Assembly: GCA_024709225.1 (NCBI GenBank)
Contig: JANJXC010000070.1
Span: 1 to 37,473 of the forward strand
Direction: 5' to 3'
Source of the DNA: Gammaproteobacteria bacterium
GTDB lineage: Bacteria > Pseudomonadota > Gammaproteobacteria > Thiohalomonadales > Thiohalomonadaceae
DNA length: 37,473 nt
The position numbers were made by a program, and so were the translations under genes. Within the stretch, counting starts at the first letter, position 1, and each line of letters begins with the position of its first letter. Below the pieces are notes generated by a model, which was given only the letters and a program-made list of their open reading frames with translations, was not told the DNA's origin and made no database searches. Positions 15,297 to 37,473 of the stretch are shown here, piece after piece.

Positions 15297-15611
15297 ATGA
15301 ACGATTGGATCACCATCGGCACACTGGAAGACATCCCGCGCCAGGGCGCGCGCGTGGTGCAGACCGCCGCCGGCGAGGTAGCCGTATTCCGCGCCCAGAG
15401 CGATGCGGTGTTCGCCCTGGCCAACCGCTGCCCCCACAAGGGCGGACCGCTGGCCGAAGGCATCGTGTTCGATCACCATGTCGCCTGCCCGCTGCACAAC
15501 TGGAAGATCAGCCTGGAAAGCGGCGAGGCCGTGGCGCCCGACCGGGGCTGCGCGCGGCGCTACGCGGTGCGTCTGGCGGACGGCATTGTACAAATCAACA
15601 TCACCACCTAA
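15297..15611 (+). CDS. nirD: Nitrite reductase small subunit NirD, Rieske type
   Basis: A 104-residue Rieske-fold partner of NirB. The [2Fe-2S] ligands are all present: C45 and H47 (CPHKGG), C64 and H67 (CPLHNW). Many enterobacterial NirD proteins have lost these, so this subunit probably binds a cluster. The ATG follows GAGGAG at nine bases. It lies 100 bp after nirB, with a palindrome between. Its stop TAA touches the next palindromic repeat. Confidence 0.93.
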   Translation: MNDWITIGTLEDIPRQGARVVQTAAGEVAVFRAQSDAVFALANRCPHKGGPLAEGIVFDHHVACPLHNWKISLESGEAVAPDRGCARRYAVRLADGIVQINITT

Positions 15612-15751
15612 CGCAAAGACGCAGAGGACACAAAGAGGGAATGGGAAAGCAACTCGTGGCACAGATGCATCGAATAGCCATCCCACACGGCATGACACCC
15701 TTTACGTCTTTGCGGCTTTGCGTTGGATTTGTTGTTTTTCGTCTTTGCGTT
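15610..15751. repeat. Palindromic element with AACGCAAAGAC arms
   Basis: AACGCAAAGAC (15610-15620) is inverted at 15741-15751, and a second inverted copy (CTTTACGTCTTTGCGGC and onwards) lies at about 15709-15732. The element fills the nirD-nasA gap (151 bp). No open frame in it looks real. It starts within the nirD stop codon. Confidence 0.75.
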
Positions 15752-34528: not shown

Positions 34529-35077
34529 CTACTCGCGCCAATACCGCGGGTCGTTCAGGGTATCGGCGCACTGCACCGTGCCATGTACCTGGCCGAGTAC
34601 GCCCGGCCGCAACGCCAGCACCATCCAGGCGGCGTCATGCTCGGCAGGAATTGGATAAGGCGCGGCCAGACCCAGCGCCCGCGCCGGGCGGAATCCGAAG
34701 CGGGAATAGTAGTCGGGATAGCCGAGGACAAAGACCAGCGCGACGCCCGCCGCTGCCAGCAGCCGCAGCCCGGCGCGAACCAGGGCGCCGCCGACGCCCT
34801 GCCCCTGTACCTCCGGCAGCACCGCCAGCGGTGCGAGGATCTGCGCAGCGGTTTCCTGATCGCCCGGTTGCATCGTTACGGCGGTAAACAGCACATGCCC
34901 CACTACCCTGCCATCCACCTCCGCCACCAGCGAATGCAGCGGCCTGGCGGTTGCATCGCCCAGCAAGCCCTCAACCAGCGCGACGATCTCCGGCCCCTCT
35001 GTGAGGCCGAAGGCTGCCTCATGGACAGTCCGGACGGCAGCACGGTCATCTGTGGTAGCGAATCTGACGTTCACCAT
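34529..35077 (-). CDS. GNAT N-acetyltransferase, YhbS-like
   Basis: 182 residues with the GNAT fold. The acetyl-CoA loop is VQGQGVGGALV (Q91-G96), preceded by LAPLAVLPE and followed by VFVLGYPDYYSRFGFRPA, the layout of YhbS-type acetyltransferases. The substrate is unknown. I chose ATG 35077 (MVNVRFATTD), which begins at the first GNAT strand; the ribosome site is weak, and in-frame sequence upstream is a non-conserved-looking Pro/Gly-rich stretch. Confidence 0.85.
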   Translation of the reverse strand: MVNVRFATTDDRAAVRTVHEAAFGLTEGPEIVALVEGLLGDATARPLHSLVAEVDGRVVGHVLFTAVTMQPGDQETAAQILAPLAVLPEVQGQGVGGALVRAGLRLLAAAGVALVFVLGYPDYYSRFGFRPARALGLAAPYPIPAEHDAAWMVLALRPGVLGQVHGTVQCADTLNDPRYWRE

Positions 35078-35252
35078 GGAATGTATTTCATCACGATGGC
35101 CGCCCTCCCCCGGTATCAACCGGAGCCCTTGGTAGGTTGGCGCTGACGGAGGAAGCCCAACGAACGGGGCACGGGGCATGCCGGGCTTCGTTCCTCACTC
35201 CTGTCGTGCTGCGCCGACAAAGACCACTCGACGGGACGGATGAAAGTTACGT

Positions 35253-35549
35253 TCAAGAAGATACCGGCTGATGTTTCAGGAAACATCGCTCAGACGTCAG
35301 CCACACGCCAAGGCCATAACACGCCCCCGCCGCCATCCAGAGCAGCGACTGCCAGACCCAGTAATAACCGGCCGTGTCTGCCCGATACGGCAACCCGAAA
35401 TAAACCGGGGCGCACGCCATGACCAGGAACATCGGCAGCCCCCAGCGGATGACGCCATTAAAGACAACAAAACGCCACTTGCCTTGCCTGCGCGTTTCGC
35501 CCCAGGTCAGGTGGCGTCTTTCGGGGTAGTACCAGGAAAATTTCGGCAT
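35253..35549 (-). CDS. Small membrane protein, unknown
   Basis: 98 residues with a basic N-terminal part (WGETRRQGKWRF) and two hydrophobic helices (about 30-50 and 62-82). ATG 35549 has AGGAG six bases upstream, a good match that decides the start over an in-frame codon at 35606. It lies 93 bp beyond the attC-like site at 35643-35720 on the same strand as the two cassette genes, so it may be a further cassette, but I see no attC-like site after it. No function assigned. Confidence 0.7.
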   Translation of the reverse strand: MPKFSWYYPERRHLTWGETRRQGKWRFVVFNGVIRWGLPMFLVMACAPVYFGLPYRADTAGYYWVWQSLLWMAAGACYGLGVWLTSERCFLKHQPVSS

Positions 35550-35642
35550 TGCGTGCTCCTTCAACTTCGAACGCAAGTTGTTAGTCTGACCCCGAACTAT
35601 TTTCAATAAGGATGTTTTCGGTGGTCATGTCCATTTCTTAAC

Positions 35643-35720
35643 GTCTAACGCCCGCAATAAACGGCGCGAGGAACGAGCGTCCGGCGACCGTAGGGAGCGA
35701 ATTTAATTTCTTGGTTATGC
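35643..35720 (-). other. Integron attC-like recombination site 1
   Basis: Read on the minus strand it starts GCATAAC (35720-35714), the R'' core, and ends GTTAGAC (35649-35643), a perfect GTTRRRY R' core, 78 bp in all. It lies directly at the 3' end of the gene at 35715-36332, whose TAA stop is inside the R'' core, as is usual for cassettes. The inner arms are only partly complementary, so it is a degenerate site. Confidence 0.62.
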
Positions 35721-36332
35721 GTTCTCATTTTCTATCCAGACACAGAAATCTGTAATCTCTCTCAGGTCAGGAAATTCACCGTCTTTTGGCCCCCACCATC
35801 CCAAAGAGTCCCGATAGAGATAGTAAATATATTTATGGTACTTGTCGTAGAATTGAGTGAGGCTGAGATTAGATGATCTTTCATAGGCGACATGCCCACA
35901 GACTTTGTTCCGGTATTCTCGAAAGTTCTTTGCAAACTCCTCAGGCACCTTTACATCATAAAAACCTATGTCATTTACCCACTCAGGTGCGCGACCATCT
36001 TTAATGGCATCACGATATTGATCCATCACTCGCTGCGCGTGATGCATGATGTAACTGTCAATTATAAGGGTTCGTTCTTCACCTTTCTTGTTCGTTATCT
36101 TCGTGTTGCCAGAATCACGAGCATTACATCCCAAAATAAACTCGTACAGGTGATGCACGAAGCTTGAATACGCGTTATAGGCCCGATAAGAAACCTCTCG
36201 GATACGCCCTTTCATAATCATGATGGTGGCGTAATGGGTGAACCGCTGAAACTCGTCATGACACCTGAACATTTCATGAGTTAAAGCAGTGCAGTGATCT
36301 GAATCGACAATGCCGCCTACCTCAAACTTCAT
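35715..36332 (-). CDS. Cassette gene: HEPN-motif-containing unknown protein
   Basis: 205 residues, mostly helical in character and clearly lower in GC than the neighbours. Near the C-terminus is EYRNKVCGHVAYE with R141 and H147, a match to the R-x4-6-H motif of HEPN ribonucleases, many of which are toxins or phage-defence effectors. The full HEPN fold is not proven. ATG 36332 has AAGGAG at five bases; an in-frame ATG at 36350 lies inside the upstream attC core and was rejected. The gene is flanked by attC-like sites on both sides, so it is a mobile integron cassette. No partner antitoxin is recognisable. Confidence 0.75.
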   Translation of the reverse strand: MKFEVGGIVDSDHCTALTHEMFRCHDEFQRFTHYATIMIMKGRIREVSYRAYNAYSSFVHHLYEFILGCNARDSGNTKITNKKGEERTLIIDSYIMHHAQRVMDQYRDAIKDGRAPEWVNDIGFYDVKVPEEFAKNFREYRNKVCGHVAYERSSNLSLTQFYDKYHKYIYYLYRDSLGWWGPKDGEFPDLREITDFCVWIENENA

Positions 36333-36346
36333 GACTACTCCTTGAT

Positions 36347-36418
36347 GCATAACGCCCAGCTGAGCCGACGAGGGGGCGCGCTAGCGTCCCCGAGGTCGGC
36401 TCCAGCTGGATGTTATAC
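36347..36418 (-). other. Integron attC site 2
   Basis: On the minus strand: R'' core GTATAAC (36418-36412), L'' CCAGCTGGAGCCGAC, a variable centre, L' GTCGGCTCAGCTGG, and R' core GTTATGC (36353-36347); 72 bp. The arms pair almost perfectly, with one extra base in L'', the extrahelical base that marks attC strand polarity. It separates the two cassette genes, both of which point the same way. Confidence 0.88.
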
Positions 36419-36424
36419 GCGTAC

Positions 36425-37024
36425 TTAAATGGTGTTTTCACGCACGATCTGTCCTATCTCGTGGCTCAATTGTGAGAATGCATAGGCCCGGACCAGTGAG
36501 GGAACGTGCACGATGTGCCTCAACCCTTCCTTTTCATCAAAATCGGAAGCAACCTCCACGTAAACCCGCCCGTCTTCAAACTCCCTAGTCTTGCCATCTT
36601 CGTATACCCTCAAATGGCAGTAATCTCCTCCGAGCACCATCACTGATTTCGAATGGATTACGCGCCCAAGGATCCACCACAGGCTTTCCGGGCACAGCTG
36701 GATTTCCCTTTCTTCAATTCCTCCTCGCCCAATCCAAGCGACTGGACGATCGCTATGTGGGAATAGCTTCTTCGCAAGAGCGACCTTACCCGCGCGCTCA
36801 ATGAGTTTGCGAAGGATAAAGCAATACTCATGCAGTCCATCGATCACTTCAACCGTGAACTCGAGATCGAGCGACTGAAAGGAGAACAGATCATCTTCAA
36901 TGGCATTCCTTCCTGCGACGAATCGATTCCTGTCGAAACATGAGAGAGCAAGCAATCTAGTGCCAGCATCGACTGCCTTTGCGTGCCAACGCGCAATGAG
37001 CGCAACCTGTTTCGTCACGACCAC
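36425..37024 (-). CDS. Cassette gene: unknown protein
   Basis: 199 residues, no signal peptide or membrane helix, lower GC than the flanking chromosome. Recognisable stretches are LHEYCFILRKLIERAGK and PESLWWILGRVIHSKS, but I cannot place the family. It begins with GTG 37024, four bases after CGGAG. The stop is six bases before attC site 2, and a GTTATAC core lies 12 bases upstream of the start, so the gene is bounded like an integron cassette. Confidence 0.7.
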   Translation of the reverse strand: MVVTKQVALIARWHAKAVDAGTRLLALSCFDRNRFVAGRNAIEDDLFSFQSLDLEFTVEVIDGLHEYCFILRKLIERAGKVALAKKLFPHSDRPVAWIGRGGIEEREIQLCPESLWWILGRVIHSKSVMVLGGDYCHLRVYEDGKTREFEDGRVYVEVASDFDEKEGLRHIVHVPSLVRAYAFSQLSHEIGQIVRENTI

Positions 37025-37036
37025 TAGGCTCCGAGC

Positions 37037-37043
37037 GTATAAC
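37037..37043 (-). other. Integron-type core site upstream of first cassette
   Basis: The minus strand reads GTTATAC, a GTTRRRY core, 12 bases before the start of the cassette gene. It could be the R' core of an attI site or of a decayed attC; sequence further upstream (to about 37185) does not pair with it. Supported mainly by position. Confidence 0.4.
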
Positions 37044-37214
37044 AGTTATTTAGACTGACGCCGCACTAATACTTTTAGCAACGCTGCGGCCTATCACATT
37101 AGCCACAGCAAACCAGAAAGCGGCAATTTTTCCGATAAACCAGCAGCTTGCCCTCATTTCCTCGACTCCCACGCATCCGTTAGCCAAGATACTGCCAACG
37201 CCTCACGCCGCTGT

Positions 37215-37234
37215 CTGTAGGTGAATGCCTACAG
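37215..37234. other. Small hairpin in the gap before the regulator gene
   Basis: CTGTAGG (37215-37221) and CCTACAG (37228-37234) form a 7-bp stem with a 6-base loop. No T-run follows. The gap 37044-37282 holds no gene I can support. Confidence 0.45.
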
Positions 37235-37282
37235 CGTCCTCTTCCGGCTTCCGCACTGTCGTGGAAAAAATTCCCCCTCCCA

Positions 37283-37308
37283 GCCTCCCCCACTGTCGTG
37301 GGGGAGGC
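37283..37308 (-). terminator. Terminator-like hairpin after the partial regulator gene
   Basis: GCCTCCCCCA (37283-37292) and TGGGGGAGGC (37299-37308) pair perfectly over 10 bp around a 6-base loop. On the minus strand it starts 14 bases after the stop of the gene at 37323; a T-run appears only about 12 bases after the stem. Confidence 0.75.
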
Positions 37309-37322
37309 GTTAATCAAAGAGG

Positions 37323-37473
37323 CTAATTTTCCCGCAGTTCGCGCAGCTTGCGGTACAGCGTCCGCTCCGACAGCCCGAGCTGGTCGGCGAGGGCGCGCTT
37401 GTCACCCTGGAAGCGGGCCAGGGCCCAGAGCAGGTAGCGGTGTTCCACTTCTTCCAGCGGGATCACTTCGCCG
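37323..37473 (-). CDS. C-terminal end of a Fis-type HTH regulator (partial)
   Basis: Only the last 49 residues are inside the window; the gene continues beyond 37473. The text [19 protein letters not shown] followed by [20 protein letters not shown] is a Fis-type helix-turn-helix, as found at the C-terminus of sigma-54-dependent NtrC-family activators. Which activator, and whether it acts on genes here, cannot be told. The stop is TAG at 37325-37323. Confidence 0.82.

Follow-up and report, generated by a model that had tools for sequence, protein, structure and literature searches.

A repeated attI-like element heads an integrase-less pair of gene cassettes, one encoding a predicted HEPN RNase, in a gammaproteobacterium of the Thiohalomonadaceae

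Introduction

How does an array of integron gene cassettes come to lie in a chromosome with no integrase gene beside it? The question is raised by positions 35643 to 37043 of a 37,473-nt contig (C78; the window, here the whole of that contig) from a gammaproteobacterium of the Thiohalomonadaceae whose genome (G000) comprises 2.90 Mb in 110 contigs. An earlier note, made from the sequence alone, had read this region as a cassette array resembling a CALIN (cluster of attC sites lacking an integron integrase), which by the usual rule, as given in PMC12444791, has at least two attC sites and no neighboring integrase. Here, we report that two small genes, A and B, each end in an attC site, and that a repeated attI-like element heads the array; this heading element is what is new about the locus. 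We favor, at a probability of about 0.58, an explanation in which the two cassettes sit behind a docking element that an integrase would serve in trans, the second cassette encoding a predicted HEPN-fold ribonuclease (RNase).

Results

The region holds two attC sites, both on the minus strand. Site 1 (35643..35720) lies at the end of cassette B and site 2 (36347..36418) at the end of cassette A, with the R′ box of site 2 opening cassette B. An attC covariance model (R1), whose training set comprised 12 sites of other loci and none of the window, returned only two matches in the window at E ≤ 10, approximately 627 nt apart, and these were sites 1 and 2 (23.3 and 22.2 bits; E = 0.0039 and 0.0071, respectively, under a rough calibration). 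With the filters of the search off, the full sites were lost and only fragments of 5.4 and 6.5 bits were returned; all matches in that mode were at most 64 nt long, and the loss of the full sites probably reflects a length limit of that mode. Site 2 has R″ GTATAAC, R′ GTTATGC, long L arms, and one bulged base, in agreement with the paired boxes and extrahelical base described in the earlier note. Relative to shuffled sequences, its single-stranded DNA fold was strong on the cassette strand (z = −4.64; equaled by 0 of 200 shuffles) and on the other strand (z = −5.10; equaled by 1 of 200), and its pattern-plus-stem score of 18.7 exceeded the maximum of 13.2 reached in 200 shuffles of a 2.5-kb segment. 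Site 1 has divergent arms, R′ GTTAGAC, and R″ GCATAAC, the last containing the stop codon of gene B as had been claimed; it is shared with a Halomonas locus (L012) up to its GTTA core. The fold of site 1 was no better than that of shuffles (z = +1.03), and the simple pattern-plus-stem scanner missed it. Both sites are nevertheless confirmed as real by the model trained without them. Elsewhere in the window (15606-15728), an extended, imperfect inverted repeat containing ACGCAAAG units passes for an attC when a simple scan is used.

No integrase gene (intI) lies in the window: in a search of the organism's own genome, matches fell only on contigs C51 and C88. C78, which ends inside a regulator gene, carries two close attC sites and no intI, and the reading of an integrase-less, CALIN-like array is supported. 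It is also incomplete, since a repeated element stands at the head of the array and the genome carries an intact intI elsewhere, on C51 (465 bits against a cutoff of 265; 339 aa; 264 bp from the contig end). The array side of that gene (C51, 15608-16891) is lost at the contig end, and the intI stretch is 93% identical to the integron of G001, a complete congeneric genome, over its last 361 nt. In G001, intI is followed by its array and lies far from the locus orthologous to the window. In two other genomes of the genus, G002 and G004, no intI was found, the best matches scoring at most 81 bits against the same cutoff; these are presumably XerC and XerD. A further contig of the own genome (C26, 4980-6365, at the contig end) carries a gene with a subthreshold SH3 match, an attC, a DUF6988 gene, and a second attC, with no neighboring intI.

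Both genes lie on the minus strand, co-oriented as the earlier note had stated, and their atypical composition was borne out: GC content is 0.51 in gene A and 0.44 in gene B, compared to a mean of 0.672 in the same contig (standard deviation, 0.029; 350 windows of 600 nt over positions 1 to 35600). The claim that each is bounded by attC sites held in part. Each gene has one such site, but the left edge of gene A is formed by the repeated element. An attC at that edge was considered and rejected, as no hairpin at 37030-37105 was better than shuffles and R1 had no match there. Because this element heads the array and also stands before other reading frames elsewhere, the array is more than a stray cluster of cassettes.

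The sequence of 142 nt to the left of cassette A is repeated within the genus (search of 20 genomes). Its core (37039..37103, minus strand) is conserved up to a crossover G at 37043. When the window copy was aligned with seven other copies, all shared approximately 61 nt ending at this G, with a mean pairwise identity of 0.79 over the 60 nt up to the G versus 0.27, the level expected by chance, over the 60 nt beyond G-TTA (28 pairs). TTA follows the G in seven of the eight copies, that of G001 reading GTAAGCC, and the R′ pattern GTTRNRY fits four (the window, G002 C5, G004 C57, and G004 C30). Farther upstream in the element is a hairpin, CTGTAGG..CCTACAG (37215..37234, minus strand; by eye), which recurs at about this distance in 7/8 copies, once with a T-G wobble and not in G004 C10. 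A sequence model of the element (R2), with the window copy in its training set (75.1 bits), placed it at eight loci in four of five genus genomes (own genome, 1; G001, 1; G002, 2; G004, 4; G003, none), and at least 9 of 76 genomes had a match at E ≤ 0.01. Among the matches listed, the best outside the genus were two weaker ones in G007, from another genus of the family (31.7 and 26.5 bits). These diverged copies end in ACTGTTA and one has a reading frame 11 nt on; R1 found no attC at either locus.

Beyond the crossover, the loci differ. A different reading frame on the same strand starts 7 to 43 nt after each of the seven other copies, and six of these seven first frames had no Pfam match at E ≤ 0.01, the seventh having a BRCT domain. 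R1 found attC sites at five of the seven loci (L125, L126, L127, and L130 at E < 0.1; L128 at E = 0.24) and none at L129 or L131. All 12 attC matches at these loci (E ≤ 10) were downstream of the element and co-oriented with it; the same run gave a 13th match, close to a weak G033 copy (L135), on the opposite strand. On C57 of G004, four attC sites either overlap a reading-frame end or begin 6 nt beyond it. Since copies at eight places in four genomes end at the same base and lead into different reading frames, we regard the repeat as a likely landing site for cassettes, present in dispersed copies.

The orthologous locus makes the same point. Contig C31 of G004, a sister species, has the regulator (94% identity), the GNAT gene (73%), and the element in common with the window, followed by other reading frames and an attC, as a fixed docking site predicts. 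At the G002 orthologue other genes are present, including a GGDEF-type gene (named by eye from the sequence). In G001, the regulator and gene C lie approximately 193 nt apart, compared to approximately 1.58 kb in the window, and there are no cassettes; only the left half of the element is present, including the hairpin, followed by an insert between CTAAGGA repeats. This small insert (L091, 5120-5300) has inverted ends, cuts the docking element, and by eye looks like a miniature inverted-repeat transposable element. Nearby in G001 (L091, 4040-5140), a partial second copy of gene C lies among many AGTTCGGGGTCAGAGTAA-type repeats.

How far the element resembles a classical attI site was then a matter of position and of sequence. 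Like an attI, it is conserved up to the crossover and followed by variable cassettes with attC sites. However, it does not stand beside an intI gene: R2 found no copy at the 29 intI loci from related genomes or in the stretch around the organism's own intI, several of these being cut by contig ends. Nor did the element match the attI region adjoining intI in G001. Against the element profile, the 24 nt that precede the crossover of class 1 attI1 scored higher than all 623 background GTTRNRY sites, but at only −0.03 bits, and we regard this possible likeness to attI1 as a weak lead.

Gene B (35715..36332, minus strand; 205 aa) occupies a cassette of approximately 704 nt. It is no orphan, as had been proposed for both genes, having 78 homologues; its relatives occupy 21 loci in a scan of named genomes and one in a viral collection. 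The alignment to a Halomonas metagenome-assembled genome (L012) covers 710 nt ungapped at 93% identity and spans GCG-TTATGC through the GCG-TTA of site 1. The Halomonas nitroreducens copy (L013) aligns over 642 nt at 82%; this match begins at GGCG-TTATGC and stops at the termination codon within R″, and the attC that comes next is a different one. In both Halomonas records, the start of the shared DNA thus lies no more than 4 nt from the attC cut point, and in one of them its end lies no more than 3 nt from the following cut point. The sequences upstream differ. Substitutions are mostly synonymous (28 synonymous and 11 nonsynonymous relative to L012; 90.5 versus 22.5 relative to L013, where synonymous sites are saturated). 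Given these shared boundaries and this pattern of change, gene B most likely moved as a cassette and remained under selection. In L013 (4007-4702), the homologue lies soon after an open reading frame resembling ribose-phosphate pyrophosphokinase (by eye), has its own attC, and is apparently a single cassette outside an integron. In a wider R1 run (38 sources, 330,269 bases), none of the 25 matches at E ≤ 10 fell in the 17 gene B homologue loci without an adjacent R1 site (L014, L016, and L018 to L032).

The product of gene B is predicted to be an HEPN-fold RNase. In an alignment of the window protein with 46 of its 78 homologues, the motif R-N-x4-H (R143-N144-...-H149) is invariant in all 47 rows, each with a polar residue after the Arg. 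It lies at the end of model helix 135-148, and helix 2 contains an invariant Glu. The HEPN survey, which defines the motif as R-x4-6-H with a polar residue after the Arg, describes the same placement at a helix end. An alternative is that the helical bundle is only HEPN-like and that the protein is no nuclease but binds RNA or another partner. Consistent with this, the window protein has no Pfam match, only one of the 47 members touches an HEPN model (E = 0.22), and no solved HEPN structure was reached from gene B by sequence search. We consider the alternative unlikely in view of the invariant motif, its position, and the helix 2 Glu. The nearest known parallel is Vpc_cass2 (PDB 3JRT), described in PMC3710099 and PMC3548836 as representing an HEPN family from integron cassettes; like it, gene B encodes a cassette-borne helical-bundle protein predicted to be an HEPN RNase. 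However, 3JRT was not among the four profile-search matches of gene B at E ≤ 10, so at that sensitivity gene B forms a sequence family of its own. Unlike HEPN-MNT toxin-antitoxin pairs, the gene B cassette holds a single gene, and identity is 3 to 11% in the nine rows compared.

Gene A (36425..37018, minus strand; 197 aa), in a cassette of approximately 690 nt, was given a GTG start chosen from its homologues, of which there are 31. Its AlphaFold2 model is confident (predicted local distance difference test score, 91.4), and the window protein has no Pfam match and no assignable fold or family, so that it could still be a diverged MNT (nucleotidyltransferase) antitoxin partner of gene B. Gene A was found only in its own genome, both among 144 related genomes and among 369 drawn from the class; gene B likewise was found in 1 of the 144. 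Neither subthreshold attC sites nor conservation of the genes in all relatives, the two outcomes that the earlier note had set against its reading, was observed.

The surrounding genes are chromosomal; the order on the minus strand is regulator, gene A, gene B, gene C, and GNAT gene. The regulator gene (37323..37473), by eye of the sigma-54-type response-regulator kind, is cut by the contig end so that its C-terminal part is present. Over 48 aa it shares 100% identity with a 462-aa gene in G001, and matches to it lie upstream of this locus in both G002 (90%) and G004 (94%). Past the last crossover, the right flank (35597..35648, minus strand) has no counterpart found in G001, similarity to which picks up again at approximately 35598. 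Gene C (35253..35549, minus strand), encoding a 98-aa protein that appears membrane-like by eye, has a counterpart with 91% identity in the corresponding position of G001; it is chromosomal and not a cassette, because in G001 it and the regulator flank a cassette-free stretch. The GNAT acetyltransferase gene (34529..35098, minus strand; Pfam Acetyltransf_9, 50.9 bits) has relatives at the same locus in G001, G002, and G004, that of G001 matching in two separate pieces. The ordinary chromosomal neighbor proposed earlier is thus present, but its hairpin terminator is not borne out, since the T run lies approximately 13 nt past the stem and the terminator scan did not list it. A consensus promoter scan of 35200-37473 listed none.

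Discussion

The locus resembles a CALIN in its two attC sites of the same orientation, its lack of an adjacent intI, and its small genes of foreign composition. It differs in being headed by an element that is repeated before different reading frames at eight loci, which is not how CALINs are described in the accounts we draw on. With the attI site of an integron, the element shares a fixed sequence up to the crossover G, variable cassette starts thereafter, and co-oriented attC sites at 5/7 other loci; it may also bear a weak resemblance to attI1. Unlike an attI, it has no intI beside it and exists in several copies per genome in G002 and G004, and its sequence differs from the attI region of the G001 intI. 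Docking at the element is well supported by this anatomy, from which we infer that recombination took place there.

Other origins for the repeat have to be weighed. The elements may be attI leftovers of formerly complete integrons whose integrase was lost, the arrays being decaying fragments. Integrase loss is a usual account of CALIN origin as presented in PMC11389934, and G002 and G004 have arrays but no intI. However, R2 found no match beside intI in the own genome, G001, G003, or other intI loci (some stretches being short), and eight separate losses would each have had to leave the same approximately 61 nt, which makes this origin rather improbable. That the repeat is instead the left end of a mobile unit carrying the element with its cargo, the boundary being a transposon end, would fit its presence at many loci, the hairpin near its start in 7/8 copies (by eye), and the finding that only 4/8 copies continue with sequence fitting GTTRNRY. 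We find this very doubtful, as the element stays constant at the orthologous locus while the cassettes differ between the window and G004, G-TTA follows in 7/8 copies, and attC sites are present at 5/7 other loci.

Cassettes could also have inserted off target, at a chance chromosomal G-T-T of the attG type. Insertion at such nonclassical attG sites has reportedly been seen (Loot 2024, as relayed in papers citing it), and homologues of gene B do lie at other chromosomal places in Halomonas. The present cassettes resemble attG insertions in lying outside an integron at G-T-T; attG sites, though, are scattered sequences in those papers, whereas the element is a conserved repeat. Chance sites would not share the same approximately 61 nt before the crossover at eight loci, and we hold off-target insertion here to be highly improbable.

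Under the docking explanation that we favor, a circular cassette would use its attC to recombine with the element at G-TT; the sequence after the G would then belong to the cassette and everything up to the G would stay chromosomal. Later cassettes would enter at the same point and shift older ones away. The recombinase acting in trans could be the own-genome IntI encoded on C51 or one since lost. The gene B product, once triggered, would cut RNA and most probably act as a one-gene phage defense or growth arrest factor. In a broader version, a tentative proposal to which we give somewhat less than even odds, this genus would have several fixed orphan docking sites around the chromosome, all served by one integrase, present or lost, and each holding a first-position cassette of its own.

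How CALINs arise has not been settled; the sources we draw on offer integrase loss and scattered-site insertion as explanations. A repeated docking element whose cassettes differ between sister species at one and the same locus would be a third, directly testable route, and, if true, cassette capture would be uncoupled from the intI locus. The HEPN cassette provides a conserved one-gene candidate for phage defense or growth arrest, a type of candidate recently found in integrons, according to a review of screens. If one integrase does serve several platforms, this would constitute a new integron architecture in which cassettes could be stored at numerous addresses in the genome besides the intI locus, and CALINs would have an origin distinct from integrase loss or random insertion.
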